Shown here one piece after another: positions 2,940-59,019 of a DNA stretch of 64,000 nt; the stretch's first letter is position 1, and every line of letters begins with the position of its first letter. Below the pieces are notes generated by a model that had not been told where the DNA came from, did not search any database, and worked only from the letters and a program-made list of their open reading frames with translations. Origin of the DNA: Acidimicrobiales bacterium. Lineage in GTDB: Bacteria > Actinomycetota > Acidimicrobiia > Acidimicrobiales > MedAcidi-G1. The stretch lies in assembly GCA_030747595.1 (NCBI GenBank), contig JASLKK010000004.1, positions 124,001-188,000 on the forward strand, given 5' to 3'. The position numbers were made by a program, and so were the translations under genes.

Positions 2940-3308
2940 AGGGGTCCTTACTCTTTAGACGACGGTCGATACTTGTTCGGTGTCTGCGGGTGAGAATCCC
3001 GCTTCTAGGAACAGTACAGCCCTTCACTGGAAGAGCTCATGGTGAACCACGTCATTTCAGTGAGCTTTGGTGCTGACGAATCGGTGGTGGCCACTGGTGT
3101 TTGCGGACAGCCGACACGCCATCGGTAGTGCGAGCAGTCTGTCTGCCTGGAACGCTTCTCGTGCGAGGTGATTGATGGGGTCTGGTGCACGGTCGGCAAT
3201 GGCCGGTCGAATCAGGCTTTCGTTGGGGCTCCGACAGGCTGGTTGTAATCGACTTTGGTGGGCCAGTCGAACAAAGGGTCGGTGGGTGAGAGACCGCCGT
3301 GGCTCCGG
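2940..3308. other. Intergenic region, 369 bp, no gene recognised
   Basis: No coding sequence with convincing codon pattern is seen on either strand between the aconitase stop and the zinc-ribbon start. A short perfect stem, GCGGG/CCCGC with loop TGAGAAT, occurs at about 2985-3001, but I find no larger conserved RNA structure around it. The region probably holds the aconitase 3' end and the promoter of the zinc-ribbon/cbs unit on the minus strand. Confidence 0.5.
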
Positions 3309-5585
3309 TCAGGAGACGGAGCGTGCCCGGATGAGGTTCAGCGCACTACCGGCCTTGAACCATTCGATCTGGTCGGCCGAGTAGGTGTGCCGGCAGCTAA
3401 TCCGGGTCTCGGTGCCGTCAGGAGCGGCGACCACCACGGCTACCGGTACGTTGGGTGCCAGGTCAGCCACCCCGACCACCGATATGCGGTCCTCGGGCCC
3501 AATCAGGTCGTAGTCGGCGGGGTCGGCGAAGGTCAGCGGTAGGACGCCCTGCTTCTTCAGGTTCGTTTCGTGGATTCGCGCGAACGAGCGGGCAATGACC
3601 ACCTTGGCGCCACGGAAGCGGGGCTCCATGGCTGCGTGCTCACGCGACGACCCCTCGCCCATGTTCTCGTCGCCGATGGCCGCCCAGGCCACGCCGGCCT
3701 CGTGGTAGCGGCGGGCGATCTCCGGATAGGTCCGGGTTTCACCATCGGTGACGTCCCAGCCGGTGCCCACTTCGCCAGTGAAGGCGTTGACGGCTCCCAT
3801 GTAGACGTTGCCCGAGATGTTCTCGAGATGGCCCCGGTACTTCAGCCACGGGCCGGCCATCGAGATGTGGTCGGTGGTGCACTTGCCCTGCGCCTTGACC
3901 AGAACGGTTAGGTCGGTCAGGTCACCACCGTCCCATGCCGCGAACGGTGTCAGTAGTTGCAGGCGGTCACTCGTCGGTGACACTTCGACCTGGATGTCCG
4001 AACCGTCGGCCGGCGGGGCCTGGAAGGTCTCTTCCCCCGGGTCGAAGCCGTCGGCGGGCAGTTCCTCGCCGTCGCCCACCGTGAGGCGGACCTCGTCGCC
4101 GGCCTCGTTCAGCAGTGTGTCGTTGGCCGGATCGAAGTCGAGTCGGCCGGCGATGGTCAGGGCGATCACCGTCTCAGGGGAGGTCACGAACGCGTGGGTC
4201 GTGGCGTAGCCGTCGTTGCGCTTGGGGAAGTTCCGGTTGTAGCTGGTGACTATGGAGTTGGGGATCCCGTCGTCGAGGTCCTGACGGTCCCACTGGCCGA
4301 TACAGGGCCCACAAGCGTTGGCCAGCACCTGGGCGCCCAGCGCCTCGAAGTCGGCCAGCAGGCCGTCTCGCTCGATGGTGGCCCGGACCTGCTCGGAGCC
4401 AGGGGTGATGAGTAGTGGTGCTTTGGCGGTCAGGCCCTTGGCTACGGCGTCACGGGCGATGCTGGCCGCCCGTGTGATGTCCTCGTAGCTGGAGTTGGTG
4501 CACGAACCGATGAGCCCGGCACTGACCTCCAGCGGCCAGCCCTCGCGCTTGGCCTCGGCCCCAAGGTCTGCGACCGGACGGGCCAAGTCGGGGGTGTGGG
4601 GGCCGTTGATGTGCGGCGACAGGGTTGACAGGTCGATCTCGATGACCTCGTCGAAGTAGGAGCCGGGGTCGGCCTCAACCTCGTCGTCGGCTCGCAGATG
4701 TTGGGCCACGGCGTTGGCGGCGTCGGCCACGGCCTCACGACCCGTCGACTTGAGGTAGCGGCCAATGGCGTCGTCATAGGCGAACATCGAGGTCGTGGCG
4801 CCGATCTCTGCTCCCATGTTGCAGATGGTGGCCTTCCCGGTGGCCGACATGCTCCGTGCACCTGATCCGAAGTATTCGACAATGGCACCGGTTCCGCCCT
4901 TCACGGTGAGGATGTCGGCGACTTTCAGGATCACGTCTTTCGGGGCTGTCCATCCGTTCAATTCGCCGGTCAACTTCACGCCGATCAACTTGGGCCAACG
5001 CACGTTCCACGGGAATCCCGTCATGACGTCGACGGCATCTGCGCCACCTACGCCAACCGCAACCATTCCGAGTCCACCGGCGTTGGGGGTGTGGCTGTCG
5101 GTCCCGATCATCATCCCGCCGGGGAAGGCGTACTGCTCGAGGACGACCTGGTGAATGATCCCTGAGCCGGGCTTCCAAAAACCGGCGCCGTAGCGGGCGC
5201 AGACCGAAGCCAGGAAGTCGTAGACCTCGCGGTTGCCGTCGAGGGCGGTGGCCAGGTCCAACTTGCCGTCATCGCGAGCTTCGATGAGGTGATCGCAGTG
5301 GGTGGTCGTGGGGACCCGGACCTCATCGAGGCCAGCGGTCATGAACTGCAGCCAGGCCATCTGGGCCGTCGCGTCCTGCATGGCAACCCGGTCCGGTCGT
5401 AGGTCGACGTAGGAGACGCCGCGCTCGAGGCCGGAGGCCTCCGGATCGTCAAGGTGGTTGACAAGCACCTTCTCAGCCAGGGTGAGAGCACGGCCCAGAC
5501 GGCGACGGCCGGTGGCTACCCGCTCGTCGAGAGTCGCGTAGACGCCCTGGATCAATTGGATGGGGGTGGATGCTGCGACTGTCAT
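3309..5585 (-). CDS. acnA: Aconitate hydratase, mitochondrial-type (758 aa)
   Basis: TCA-cycle enzyme interconverting citrate and isocitrate through cis-aconitate, with a labile [4Fe-4S] cluster. The three cluster cysteines are visible: C362 in [10 protein letters not shown], and C425 and C428 in ACGPCIGQW. The substrate-binding loop [10 protein letters not shown] is present in the C-terminal swivel domain. At 758 residues and with this cysteine spacing it resembles the mitochondrial-type aconitase rather than the roughly 890-residue bacterial AcnA/IRP type. The start ATG at 5585 matches the family. It is monocistronic, with its own AT-rich upstream region containing a palindrome (separate entry). 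Confidence 0.95.
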
Positions 5586-5690
5586 AGGGGTGGATTCCTC
5601 TAGGTGGGACGGCGGGGTGCGGTGCGCATCTCGCAGAGGCTGGGCGGTGGATTTCGAAGAATGCAGGTGATCCTGGTCGGATTATTTATC

Positions 5691-20977: not shown

Positions 20978-21694
20978 TCAGAACAGTGAACGGAGCAGGA
21001 GGAGCACGGCGAAGGAACCGGACAGGACGTACACCGCTGGGGCCAGCCACCCGTGGTCGAGCAAGGGGCGAAGACGGCTACTGAGTGCCACGCCGACCAG
21101 CACCGAGGGGAGCAGGGAGAGCGCCAGGAGGAGGTCCGACGTACCGAACTCACCGGCCAGGGTCAACACGACCAACGAGATGGTCGTCCCTACGAAGAAG
21201 AAGGCGTTGAGGGTGGCCCGTAGTTCCGGGCCCGAGGAACCGTCCAGCACCAGGGCGATCGGAGGGCCGCCGACGGCCACCGAGGTGCCCATGAATCCGC
21301 TCAGGCCGCCGGCCCCCATGAGCGTCCACGGGGTCTTGGTGGCGTGCACTCCGGAGACCTTTAGACCCACGCCGACCAGCAACAGGGTGCCGAAGAGCAG
21401 GCCGATTCCGTCCTCGGACACCGCGGTGAGCGCCCAGGCGCCGAGCAGCACACCAGGAACCCGCCCGATTAGGGCCCACCGGAGGCCCGCCCGATCAATG
21501 GCGCCGTGCTCGCGCCAGGCGTAGAGGGCACAGAGCAACGGGTTGGCCAGCAGTACCGGACCGGGCACGAAGTCCGGGGCGATGAGGGCGAGTATGGGCA
21601 CGGCGAACAGACCGGCACCAAAGCCCAGCACACCCTGAATGGTGCAACCGACGGTGAACACGAGCAGACCGAGTACGAACTCGAGCGTGCTCAA
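20978..21694 (-). CDS. TauE/SafE (TSUP) family permease
   Basis: A 238-residue membrane protein with about seven to eight hydrophobic segments. The N-terminal repeat motif GVLGFGAGLFAVPIL and the second-half GGLSGFMGTSVAVGGPPIAL are typical of TSUP proteins, which move sulfite, sulfoacetate or other small organic anions. Start TTG 21694 overlaps the stop of the upstream ABC exporter by 4 bp (TTGA), so it belongs to the same transcript. The substrate cannot be read from the sequence. Confidence 0.85.
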   Translation of the reverse strand: MSTLEFVLGLLVFTVGCTIQGVLGFGAGLFAVPILALIAPDFVPGPVLLANPLLCALYAWREHGAIDRAGLRWALIGRVPGVLLGAWALTAVSEDGIGLLFGTLLLVGVGLKVSGVHATKTPWTLMGAGGLSGFMGTSVAVGGPPIALVLDGSSGPELRATLNAFFFVGTTISLVVLTLAGEFGTSDLLLALSLLPSVLVGVALSSRLRPLLDHGWLAPAVYVLSGSFAVLLLLRSLF

Positions 21695-23634
21695 CGGAGG
21701 CTCCCTCCGTCGCTGTGCCTATCCCCGATCGGACCGCCTGAGGCGTGCCGCTGCCACGTTTCGACCATGGCCGCATACTGCCCACCGAGGGCTATCAACT
21801 CGGCATGGGTCCCGTGCTCAACGATCCGTCCGTCATCGACGACAGCCACCCGGTCGGCTCGCATGGCGGTGGCCAGACGGTGGGCGATGAGGATGGCCGT
21901 GCGCCCCTCGAGCACCTGATCCAACGCCCGTTCGATGACCGACTCGGACTGCAGATCCAGGTTGGACGTGGCCTCGTCGAGCACCAGCACTCGGGGGCGA
22001 GCCAGGAACGCCCGGGCCAGAGCGACCAACTGGCGCTCGCCGGCAGACAGCGAGGCCCCCCTTTCGTGGATGGGGGTGTGGATACCGTCGGGCATCCGAT
22101 CGAGCAGTGGTCCCAGACCGACTACCCGACACGCTTCGGCCACTTCGTCGTGGGGGGCATCGGGTCGAGCGAACGACACATTGTCGGCGATCGTTCCGTT
22201 GAACAGAAACGCTTCCTGGGGGACCACGCCCAGCTGACGCCGCAGCGAAGTGATACCGACGTTCCGAAGGTCGTGCCCGTCGATGGTGATGTGGCCGAAC
22301 GTCGGGTCGTGGAATCGGGTGACCAGCTTGGCGATGGTCGACTTGCCGGCCCCAGTCGGCCCGACCACGGCCAAGACCTCACCTGGTTCGAGGACCAGAT
22401 TGATGTCTCGCAGCACCAAGTGGTCGGAGTCGTACCCGAAGGTCACCGCGTCGAAATGGATCCGTCCGTCGATGGGGGGAAGGTCGACGGCGTCAACCAG
22501 TTCGACCACGGTTGGCTCGGTGCCGAGGAGGCCACGCAGCTTGAGCACCGCGGCATTGCCCTGCTGGTACTGGTTGTAGAGCTGTACCAGAGTCTGGACC
22601 GGAGCAAAGAAGGAGGTGAGGAACAGGAGGAAGGCGGTAAGTTCGCCGATCGTCACCTCGCCCCGGAGCGCCATTCGCCCACCGACGAGAAGGACCACAG
22701 CCTGGGCGATGATCCCGATGGACTCGGTGCCGGGTCCGAACAGGGCTTGAGCCCGGCCCATGTAGAGGTTGGCCTCCAGGTGGGCGTCGATGATGCGCTG
22801 GTGGCGGGCCACGTCGTGATCGCGACGGCCGAAGGCGGTGATGACCCGGATGCCGGCCAGGCTCTCGGCCAGGTTGGACAGGACGTCGGCGATGCGGTCC
22901 CGCACCCGGAGGTAACCGATGTGAGATACCCGTCGGAACCAGAGGGTCAGCACCACGTTGATCGGGACGACGGTGAGCAGACAGACAAGGGCCAGGCCGG
23001 GGTGGAGCACCAATAGGTAGGCAGTGATGACGATCAACGTCATGCCCTGGACTACGAAGCTGACCAGGCCCTCCTGGAGCAGGGTGGTGAGGGCCTCGAT
23101 GTCGCTGGTCATCCGGGTCATCAGCACGCCCGACTTCTCGCCTGTGAAGAAGTCCAGCGACTGGCGCTGGAAATGGCTGAACACCCGGACGCGGAGGTCG
23201 TAGACGAGACGCTCGCCCAGTCGACCGGTGAAGCGGGTCCGTAGGAACGATGCGCCGGTGGAAAGCACCACGGCACCCAGGTAGGCCGACGCAACAGCCA
23301 TCAGAACGCCGATCTCGCCGGCCAAAACGCCCTGGTCGATGCCGATCTGGGTAAGCAACGGACCCACGTGGAGAAGACCGGTCTCGGCGATGACCAGGAG
23401 AAGGGCCACGAACAGGCCGCCGGCGTGTGGGATCAGGAAGGTGCGAAGCCCGAACGGTCGCCGATCCCAGCGGGAATGCGAGAACGATACGTCCGGCTCG
23501 GGGTGGTCGGGTTCGTGGCGGAGGACGTCCTCGATCCGGGTTCGAAGCTCGTCGGGCACGTCGGCGTAGGGGAGACCGGCCTGGGCGTTGGCTTGGACCG
23601 ACGAAGGTCCGGCGAAGAAACCGTGGCCGCCCAT
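21691..23634 (-). CDS. ABC exporter half-transporter, catalytically intact subunit
   Basis: A 647-residue type IV ABC exporter: an N-terminal extension (about 60 residues), six transmembrane helices (about 70-360) and an ATPase domain with Walker A VGPTGAGKST, Walker B VLVLDEATSNLD carrying the catalytic Glu, and H-loop AHR. The signature is altered (SLSAGERQ instead of LSGGQ). The partner subunit upstream has the complementary defect, so the two form a heterodimer with one consensus and one degenerate ATP site. The ATG at 23634 overlaps the partner's stop by one base. It probably exports drugs or lipids; substrate unknown. Confidence 0.92.
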   Translation of the reverse strand: MGGHGFFAGPSSVQANAQAGLPYADVPDELRTRIEDVLRHEPDHPEPDVSFSHSRWDRRPFGLRTFLIPHAGGLFVALLLVIAETGLLHVGPLLTQIGIDQGVLAGEIGVLMAVASAYLGAVVLSTGASFLRTRFTGRLGERLVYDLRVRVFSHFQRQSLDFFTGEKSGVLMTRMTSDIEALTTLLQEGLVSFVVQGMTLIVITAYLLVLHPGLALVCLLTVVPINVVLTLWFRRVSHIGYLRVRDRIADVLSNLAESLAGIRVITAFGRRDHDVARHQRIIDAHLEANLYMGRAQALFGPGTESIGIIAQAVVLLVGGRMALRGEVTIGELTAFLLFLTSFFAPVQTLVQLYNQYQQGNAAVLKLRGLLGTEPTVVELVDAVDLPPIDGRIHFDAVTFGYDSDHLVLRDINLVLEPGEVLAVVGPTGAGKSTIAKLVTRFHDPTFGHITIDGHDLRNVGITSLRRQLGVVPQEAFLFNGTIADNVSFARPDAPHDEVAEACRVVGLGPLLDRMPDGIHTPIHERGASLSAGERQLVALARAFLARPRVLVLDEATSNLDLQSESVIERALDQVLEGRTAILIAHRLATAMRADRVAVVDDGRIVEHGTHAELIALGGQYAAMVETWQRHASGGPIGDRHSDGGSLR

Positions 23635-28422: not shown

Positions 28423-28484
28423 GTAGCCACGGTCGGTGGTCACCGGTCCATCAGGCATCGGAAGCCCGCCGGTAGGATTTCGGG

Positions 28485-29393
28485 GTGCATCGCCGCCTTG
28501 GCATGACCGTCGTGCTCGCCGGGCTGGTCACCGCCCTCCTTTCGACCGCTGTTCAGGCCGCGCCCCCCGCGGGCCGATCGGATCCCGCCGGTTCGGGTAG
28601 TGCCTCGAAATCGGTGGCTTTCACCAGCGACCCATCCCAGGATCTGGTCATCGACCGAGCCACCGGCCTGCTACCGCTTATCTCGGCAGCATCCGATGTG
28701 CTTCCCCTCGCCTTGGACGGCATCGCCGCCGCCGAACGACGACTCCGAGCCATGATCGATCTGCTGGTCAGCGCCCGGCAACGCCACCGTTCGGCGGTCC
28801 GGGCGTTCGCGGACGCCAACCGACTGGTCGCCGACAACGTGCGGGATGCGGCTCAGTTGCAGTCGGGTTATGGCGACGTCCTCGCCGGCATCTCCGCCAC
28901 CGAACGTGCCCGCCTCGAACGCGACGCCAAAGGCCGACGCAACCGCTCGTCAGTGGTTCGTCAGGCGACGTCGTCGGACTGGGTTTGCCCGGTCGAAGGT
29001 CGCGTCAAATTTTATGATTCTTGGGGCGAGCGAAGGTCGGGAAACCGTCGCCATGAGGGCGTGGACCTAGTGAGCTTCAGGAACGCCCCGATCCTTGCAC
29101 CGGTGGATGGTGTGGTCACCCACCGGTGGGACACCATCGGTGGCTGGTCCTTTGACCTGGTGGCCGGGGATGGCGACTACTACTTCGGAACCCACATGTC
29201 GGGATTTGGAAAAGTCGGTGAGGTCCGGGCCGGAGAGGTGATCGGATTTATGGGAGACACCGGCAACGCCGAGGGCGTGCACCTGCATTTTGAATACCAC
29301 CCGGGTGGTCGTGAAAACGCCGTGAATGCCTACCCGATCGTGGATTCCCGCTGCAGCAACCGGACGCCCATGGACACGTCTCTCTACGACTGA
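28485..29393 (+). CDS. Secreted M23 family metallopeptidase
   Basis: A 302-residue predicted secreted peptidase acting on peptidoglycan cross-bridges. The N-terminal signal peptide is MTVVLAGLVTALLSTAVQA (after a short basic lead). A helical region (about 45-150) follows, then the LytM/M23 domain (about 165-285). All zinc and catalytic residues are visible: RRHEGVDLVS (HxxxD), FGTHMSG and VHLHFEY (HxH), so it should be active. The start is GTG 28485; an ATG six codons later gives the same signal peptide. It stands alone, 62 bp after the CNNM pair. Confidence 0.9.
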   Translation: MHRRLGMTVVLAGLVTALLSTAVQAAPPAGRSDPAGSGSASKSVAFTSDPSQDLVIDRATGLLPLISAASDVLPLALDGIAAAERRLRAMIDLLVSARQRHRSAVRAFADANRLVADNVRDAAQLQSGYGDVLAGISATERARLERDAKGRRNRSSVVRQATSSDWVCPVEGRVKFYDSWGERRSGNRRHEGVDLVSFRNAPILAPVDGVVTHRWDTIGGWSFDLVAGDGDYYFGTHMSGFGKVGEVRAGEVIGFMGDTGNAEGVHLHFEYHPGGRENAVNAYPIVDSRCSNRTPMDTSLYD

Positions 29394-57216: not shown

Positions 57217-57912
57217 GTGACTCTTCGACTACGGCAGGTAGCTCTGGTGGCCCACGACCTCGATCTCGTGGAGCGTGATCTGATCGCCCATCTGGGCCTG
57301 GAACCGTGCGTCCATGATCTCGGGGTATCGCAGTTCGGCCTCCGAAACGTGCTGTTCCCGGTGGGGGAGTGCCTCCTGGAGGTCGTCTCCCCGACGGCGA
57401 CCGGAACGACCGCCGGTCGACAGTTGGAACGCCGTGATGGGGATGGTGGCTACATGGTCCTCATCCAGACCGATGACCTGGCCGGAGATCGCCGTCGACT
57501 CGCCGATCTCGGTATTCGTATCGTCCTGGACGCGAAGATGCCGGGCATCGAAGGAGTGCATATCCATCCCAAAGACGTCGGTGGTGCCATCCTCTCGATC
57601 GACGAGACCGAGGACTGGGCAGACTGGCCGTGGGCCGGACCGGCTTGGAGCGACCACGTACGGACTGGCGTGGTCTCGGATCTCGTCGCCGTCGAGGTCC
57701 AGGCTGACGACCCGGCGGCCATGGCTGAACGTTGGGCAGACGCCTTGGGGGTGTCTCGCTCGGGCAACGCAGTGTCGCTTGACGAGGGCGAGATCCGTTT
57801 CGTGGAGCCGGCCGATGGTCGTGGAGAGGGCGTCTCCGGTCTCGAGTTTCGTTCCAAGCGGTCGGCCGATCTGATAGTCGGCGGAGTCCGGATGGCGCTT
57901 CGGCCTGCCTGA
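57217..57912 (+). CDS. VOC (glyoxalase/dioxygenase-like) family protein
   Basis: A 231-residue protein with a VOC beta-alpha-beta fold (LRLRQVALVAHDLDLVERDLIAHLGLEP; later GYMVLIQTDDLAGDRRRLADLGIRIV; VHIHPKDVGGAILSID) and a second, weaker repeat (about 140-231). The metal-binding His/Glu pattern is only partly visible, so the reaction is uncertain. Start GTG 57217. It lies 48 bp upstream of the selenoprotein gene on the same strand and is probably co-transcribed with it. Confidence 0.82.
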   Translation: MTLRLRQVALVAHDLDLVERDLIAHLGLEPCVHDLGVSQFGLRNVLFPVGECLLEVVSPTATGTTAGRQLERRDGDGGYMVLIQTDDLAGDRRRLADLGIRIVLDAKMPGIEGVHIHPKDVGGAILSIDETEDWADWPWAGPAWSDHVRTGVVSDLVAVEVQADDPAAMAERWADALGVSRSGNAVSLDEGEIRFVEPADGRGEGVSGLEFRSKRSADLIVGGVRMALRPA

Positions 57913-57960
57913 ATCCTGTTGGGTGCCCACTCGCAGGCCCCGGGCTGGAAGAATCAGTCC

Positions 57961-59019
57961 GTGCCGACGTACACGACCGAGTTGCCAATTCGTGACGAAT
58001 TGGATGCTGCGCATGGGGAGGCCATGGACGAATGGTCCAGTGCGGGAACGTGGTGGACCGGAGCGCAACGACTCGCCATGGTTGCCGAAGTACGCCGGGC
58101 CCGAGACGCCGACACTCTCGCCCCGTGGGAGTCGCCGTCAGCGGTCGATGGGCTGATTCCGGATGGCCATCCGCTGCCCGACGCTGTGGTCGACCTGGTG
58201 TGGCGGCTCACCAACCACCCAGGAACCCTGACCCCCGAGTGGCATGCCTCAATCCTCGGCCGAGGTGTGGAGGCACTGGCCTACGTCGAGGTGGTGTCGA
58301 TCGTGGCCCAGGTGAACTGCGTCGACCGGTTTGCCGACGCTCTGGAACTGGATCGTGTACCGGTACCGGAGGCGCAGCCCGGAGAACCCGACGGGCAGGT
58401 GCCCGCCGACGCCGAGGTACGCCTGCACTGGGTGCCGACAGTCGACATAGGAGGACCGAACGTCTGGCTGGCGCTCAGCGGCGTACCTTCGGAACTGGAG
58501 GCCAGGTCACGGCTCTCGACGCCTCACTACCTGGAGGGTCGGGCGGTATTCGGCGATGTGGTCTCGGATCGGTTCTCGCTGCAGCGGGTCCAGATGGAAT
58601 TGGTCGCCGCCCGCACGTCGAAACTGAACGAATGCTTCTACTGAACGACCAGTCACGCGTTGTTGCTCGGTCTGAGCGGCCTCCACCAGGACAATGAGGT
58701 GACCCTTGAAGCCATCGGCGGCTCGGGGAACGGTGATGGTGGAGTTCGACACGGCGATCTGCTCGTCCGATTGACCGAAGCCATGTGGGAAGGAGAGCCG
58801 GGGCCCCTGGCAGCGGTACGCGAGGAACTCTTGGCGGTCGCCGGAGCCGACGTTCTGGTCGATGCCGTGGCGGTGAGCGCCAACTTCCACATGATGACTC
58901 GGGTCGCTGACGGCACAGGTACGCCGTTGGACCCCGACACCGATGCTGCCTCTGTGGATTTCCGCAACGAGATCGAGGTGAACGACCTCGTGTCACGACG
59001 CCATGTCCTGGCGTCGTGA
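57961..59019 (+). CDS. AhpD/CMD-like peroxidase-related selenoprotein (in-frame TGA = Sec)
   Basis: One 352-residue protein read through a TGA at codon 228 (58642-58644). Before the TGA the sequence ends LVAARTSKLNECFY; after it, in the same frame, TTSHALLL begins 124 further codons to the TGA at 59017-59019. The joined motif E224-C-F-Y-U228-T-T-S-H232 has the CxxCxxxH layout of AhpD/carboxymuconolactone-decarboxylase-fold peroxidases, with selenocysteine for the second Cys. I recall this family from actinobacteria as alkylhydroperoxidase-related (seleno)proteins. The start is GTG 57961 (MPTYTTELPIRDELDAAHG). The helical region WWTGAQRLAMVAEVRRA also fits the family. A SECIS-like hairpin follows the TGA. 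It probably reduces peroxides. Confidence 0.88.
58663..58679 (+). promoter_or_regulatory. Candidate bacterial SECIS hairpin
   Basis: TTGCTC (58663-58668) pairs with GAGCGG (58674-58679), the two outer pairs being T-G wobbles, around the loop GGTCT. The loop begins 25 nt after the TGA, within the distance usual for SelB-recognised elements, and its first bases are G, as bacterial SECIS loops require. The stem is short, so this is a prediction. Confidence 0.55.

Follow-up and report, generated by a model that had tools for sequence, protein, structure and literature searches.

The window, by which we mean the whole stretch of 64,000 nucleotides analysed here, carries towards its 3′ end a gene that is interrupted by an in-frame TGA. 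The features of this locus are as follows.

57217..57912, + strand: Glyoxalase-like gene (Pfam Glyoxalase_3), directly upstream of the selenoprotein gene
57961..59019, + strand: AhpD-related selenoprotein gene, very probably so read; GTG start, 352 residues plus stop, Sec as residue 228
57961..58410, + strand: N-terminal half (residues 1-150), a predicted AhpD-like domain that has neither a CxxC nor a CxxU pair, delimited from the predicted model and the Sestrin2 alignment
58597..58656, + strand: predicted active-site helix-turn-helix, residues 213-232, with E213, C225, Y227, U228 and H232
58642..58644, + strand: in-frame UGA, the putative codon of selenocysteine 228; TGA is kept in relatives, and Cys is found in single-domain relatives and solved AhpD structures
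58662..58680, + strand: bacterial SECIS-type hairpin, with stem 58662-58668/58674-58680 and loop GGUCU at 58669-58673

The reading frame and its surroundings

The joined frame starts at GTG 57961, runs through TGA 58642-58644 and closes at TGA 59017-59019, so that the 124 sense codons claimed for the far side of the internal TGA in the initial annotation are indeed open, and the encoded protein of 352 residues contains the motif C225-F-Y-U228-T-T-S-H232. The start codon is supported by a GGAAG at 57947-57951, 9 nt upstream of the GTG, and by homologues whose alignment with the predicted protein begins at residue 1. The per-codon coding score is 0.25 bits before the TGA and 0.33 bits after it, both within the range of ordinary genes in the window; the two alternative forward frames of the downstream part score about -0.5. 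Differences from six related loci fall mostly at third codon positions on either side of the TGA; for one of them (L022), the counts at positions 1/2/3 are 29/15/110 before and 16/13/59 after. Together, the scores and the substitution pattern bear out the proposal that coding character is continuous across the TGA.

The Glyoxalase_3 gene is possibly co-transcribed with the selenoprotein gene. It is kept beside it in the loci L019-L025 and was not seen in the more distant loci, and as the neighbour is thus retained only in the closest relatives, any functional link between the two, though possible, is weak. Downstream, on the opposite strand, lies a homocysteine S-methyltransferase gene. Elsewhere in the window, two further TGA-ended open reading frames, at 28476-29393 (+) and 20978-21718 (-), are followed by in-frame sequence that scores positive on the crude coding score; in both cases the probable explanation is an ordinary gene end with other coding sequence behind it.

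Family membership and conservation of the UGA

The joined protein matches the NCBIfam model NF041238, ‘alkylhydroperoxidase-related (seleno)protein’ (AhpD_rel_CFYUT, an equivalog-type model of 357 positions with a curated cut-off of 175 bits), with 336.6 bits over residues 10-343, covering model positions 1-355. The part before the TGA matches positions 1-238 by itself and the part after it positions 240-355, and the CFYUT motif is present with UGA at the Sec position (NECFYUTTSH). In Pfam the protein gives only a weak match, to CMD, and its relatives of solved structure are single-domain AhpD proteins with CxxC in place of CxxU. The family itself is not new: it corresponds to ‘hypothetical protein 1’ of the Sargasso Sea selenoproteome described in 2005, for which Cys homologues were also counted (PMC1088965), and it is listed with CxxU in a 2026 review (PMC13188914). 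We find no essential difference between the window protein and this family, which shares the CFYUT motif, the CxxU pair, the SECIS-type hairpin and the full-length match. A text search of the literature for ‘CFYUT’ returned no paper. The AhpD-like selenoprotein TIGR01926 (PMC1088965, PMC13188914) likewise carries CxxU in an AhpD motif but differs in being a single domain of about 190 residues. Given that the family is already catalogued and has been on record since 2005, the finding is correct but ordinary within its field, and what the present analysis adds is a class-wide SECIS consensus and a sestrin-like architecture.

A scan of GTDB genomes recovered 22 related loci, all from Acidimicrobiia, with TGA at the Sec codon in 21; in the remaining one (L040) the TGA is preserved and a small frameshift just before it (near 5680) is possibly an assembly error. 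Copies of NF041238 above the cut-off occur in 33 of 247 genomes of the class, and among the matches listed all 37 above-cut-off copies have one internal TGA, which persists even in relatives that are only about 30% identical. Homologues continue in the same frame past the TGA rather than all ending at the equivalent of residue 227. Such a pattern bears directly on whether the TGA is a true stop, arising from a pseudogene or from a sequencing error that splits an ordinary CxxC gene. The source genome is unfinished, in 84 contigs, which would leave room for error; the TGA nonetheless recurs at this codon in dozens of separate assemblies and is shared across families of the class, purifying selection continues after it and no family member was seen to have another codon there. 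This refutes the pseudogene or error reading, to which we assign a negligible probability.

In the genomes searched, no two-domain family member with Cys instead of Sec was seen, and the exchange of Sec and Cys is therefore judged on single-domain relatives, two of which (L080 and L081) have Cys at the Sec position. No copy above the cut-off was found outside Acidimicrobiia among 396 sampled genomes of the phylum, and the plasmid collection contained no relative.

Several related genes were observed alongside the family. The genome that contains the window (G000) has a second NF041238 copy (L071 nt 3001-4026, G000:C12:9352-10377; 322.5 bits, NECFYUATTH). It also has a short single-domain AhpD-like gene (L072 nt 3001-3579, G000:C2:94956-95534) that matches TIGR01926 with 151 bits and has an in-frame TGA within NDCHYUTVHH, making it a third AhpD-type selenoprotein candidate there. 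Short AhpD-like genes with an in-frame TGA (NECEYU) also occur at L077 and L078, in two genomes of about 1 Mb from the same class (G053 and G073). With selA in both and tRNA-Sec in G053, these small genomes appear to retain the use of Sec.

SECIS-type hairpin and selenocysteine machinery

The hairpin downstream of the UGA has 7 pairs and a 5-nt loop that begins 24 nt after the UGA. The published rules for bacterial SECIS elements call for a loop of 3-9 nt, a stem of 4-16 bp, a G in the first two loop positions and a distance of 16-37 nt from the UGA (PMC13188914), and the window hairpin agrees with these loop, stem, G and spacing rules. Throughout the 58 distinct sequences of the family, CTC (Leu) stands at codon +8 and AGC or AGT (Ser) at codon +11, compared with 40% of Leu codons and 25% of Ser codons elsewhere in the same genes, a contrast that serves as a description and not a strict test, since the 58 sequences are related rather than independent. 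Codon +9 has G at its middle position and codon +10 ends in G, again in 58/58. These bases, which are fixed although synonymous codons would have allowed others, form the core of the hairpin, C-U-C / G-A-G closing the 5-nt loop, with G at loop position 2 in every sequence. Across 32 aligned sequences three of the outer pairs covary, each with at least one sequence in which both partners have changed. In this alignment 90.6% of cells pair; shuffling the columns gives 85.4% and sliding the alignment 30-50%. The hairpin of the paralogue L071 shows two compensating changes (columns 24-36, A-U, and 21-39, C-G). Folding of the single sequence gave no excess stability over shuffled sequence (z 1.04), and as the folding energy is not distinctive, the case for the hairpin rests on conservation. 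A search of the gene region with Rfam produced chance hits only.

The hairpin also bears on the suggestion that the TGA ends a functional protein of 227 residues and that what follows belongs to a separate gene, for which an open reading frame starting with TTG (119 aa, 58660-59019) could be put forward. Termination would deprive the protein of His232 and leave the AhpD domain without its second half, the sequence beyond the TGA continues the NF041238 match, and a hairpin obeying the SECIS rules is conserved at a fixed distance after the UGA, which together make two genes highly improbable. Some termination at the UGA is to be expected alongside Sec insertion.

It had been anticipated that the organism would possess SelA, SelB and tRNA-Sec, and these, together with selD, are all present in the genome. 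A tRNA-Sec with anticodon tca (UCA) lies at C2:25067-25158 (66.9 bits), selA at C2:10213-11367 (398 bits) and selB at C2:9070-10131 (267 bits), the latter two adjoining, their matches separated by about 80 bp, and selD at C4:97516-98439 (358 bits), about 26 kb before the window. The selD gene (L018 nt 1501-2424, G000:C4:97516-98439) has an in-frame TGA of its own (GAGUGCK), which suggests that it is also a selenoprotein gene. Across the class, selA is present in 32 of the 33 genomes that bear the family and in 136 of the 214 that do not (Fisher p = 2e-5); the sole exception, G234, is 90% complete and has tRNA-Sec. The presence of this machinery, and of Cys rather than Trp at the position in relatives, leaves next to no likelihood that the TGA is decoded as another amino acid, either Trp or the product of near-cognate readthrough. 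Furthermore, 43 of the 56 long open reading frames of the window end in TGA, more than in any other stop, so TGA has not been reassigned.

Because the gene is whole and the organism uses selenium, an annotation that splits the gene is wrong. The split that had been predicted for ordinary gene calling holds in part: the first fragment has 227 residues when counted from GTG 57961, whereas a mechanical caller starts at TTG 57919 and returns 241 aa.

Active site, predicted fold and proposed mechanism

Across 29 family members Glu213, Cys225, position 228 and His232 are invariant, and Tyr227 is conserved in at least 90%. The spacing of E213, C225, Y227, U228 and H232 is that of the proton relay residues of Mycobacterium tuberculosis AhpD (PMC3141380), and the relay pattern (Glu, Cys, His or Tyr, Cys, His) is reproduced with Sec for the second Cys. 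The invariant columns and this spacing substantiate the earlier assignment of a CxxCxxxH AhpD motif with Sec for Cys and, with the family match and the machinery, support a selenoprotein with an AhpD-like CxxUxxxH centre.

The predicted model (pLDDT 93.1, pTM 0.93) places helices at residues 209-222 and 226-242. Residues 154-333 align with AhpD structures with Z up to 13.2 (8.3 to 13.2 for AhpD folds with the C-terminal half), and the whole predicted chain aligns with human Sestrin2 with a Z of 17.5 over 242 residues at 3.4 Å. These alignments suggest that the protein resembles two AhpD units fused into a pseudo-dimer, with the active site in the second domain. Comparison of the N- and C-terminal halves with hhalign gave a probability of 7.9%, which is no convincing sequence evidence of duplication, and the two-domain reading thus rests on the predicted structure.

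Fused two-domain AhpD proteins of Corynebacterium ureicelerivorans and Comamonas aquatica have been described as sestrin analogues (PMC11429811). Like the window protein, they pair an N-terminal domain free of a cysteine pair with a catalytic C-terminal domain, but have a second Cys where the window protein would have Sec. Human Sestrin2 also has two AhpD-like domains per chain, as predicted for the window protein, although its redox site is in the N-terminal domain rather than the C-terminal one, and at the sequence level the window protein does not match sestrins; when solved structures were searched with a profile, AhpD proteins came up and no sestrin. Sestrins proper have an N-terminal redox site, and their C-terminal domain contains a hinge with DDYDY (PMC11429811); in the window protein the predicted redox site is C-terminal and the sequence contains no DDYDY. 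In the literature that we found, a sestrin-like architecture is not named for the NF041238 family. One could imagine a bacterial Sec counterpart of sestrin, a fused AhpD pseudo-dimer in which the first domain, lacking a cysteine pair, has come to sense a ligand or bind a partner and tunes the selenium redox site of the second, though we regard this as a rather unlikely speculation.

We propose that the gene very probably encodes an NF041238 selenoprotein in which SelB and the hairpin provide Sec at UGA 58642, with two AhpD-like domains and the redox centre in the second. The proposal builds on the frame, family, conserved UGA, SECIS-type hairpin and machinery, as read from the sequence, and on the predicted two-domain fold; from these we infer Sec insertion, peroxidase chemistry, the attacking residue and the reductant. 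SelB bound to the hairpin just 3′ of the UGA would deliver Sec-tRNA(Sec), and the ribosome would read UGA 58642 as Sec to give a single protein. The redox centre in the second domain would then comprise Glu213, Cys225, Tyr227, Sec228 and His232. Most likely, Sec228 would act as the nucleophile and reduce an organic hydroperoxide or an oxidant of a similar kind, after which Cys225 would close a selenenylsulfide, itself reduced by a cellular thiol system. In redox enzymes Sec usually takes the place of the nucleophile, and U228 is located four residues before the invariant His232, both of which argue against the converse arrangement, in which Cys225 attacks and Sec228 resolves, or the protein is a disulfide reductase and not a peroxidase. 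This arrangement differs in chemistry only and overlaps with the proposed mechanism; it gains from Sestrin2, in which the second cysteine of the pair is missing and the first carries the activity (PMC4674687), and we consider it the less probable of the two, albeit a serious contender.

The hairpins of the class yield a clear and testable SECIS consensus, CUC-NGK-NNG-AGY, with its loop 24 nt after the UGA, and NF041238 in Acidimicrobiia provides a good case of long-term Sec retention.
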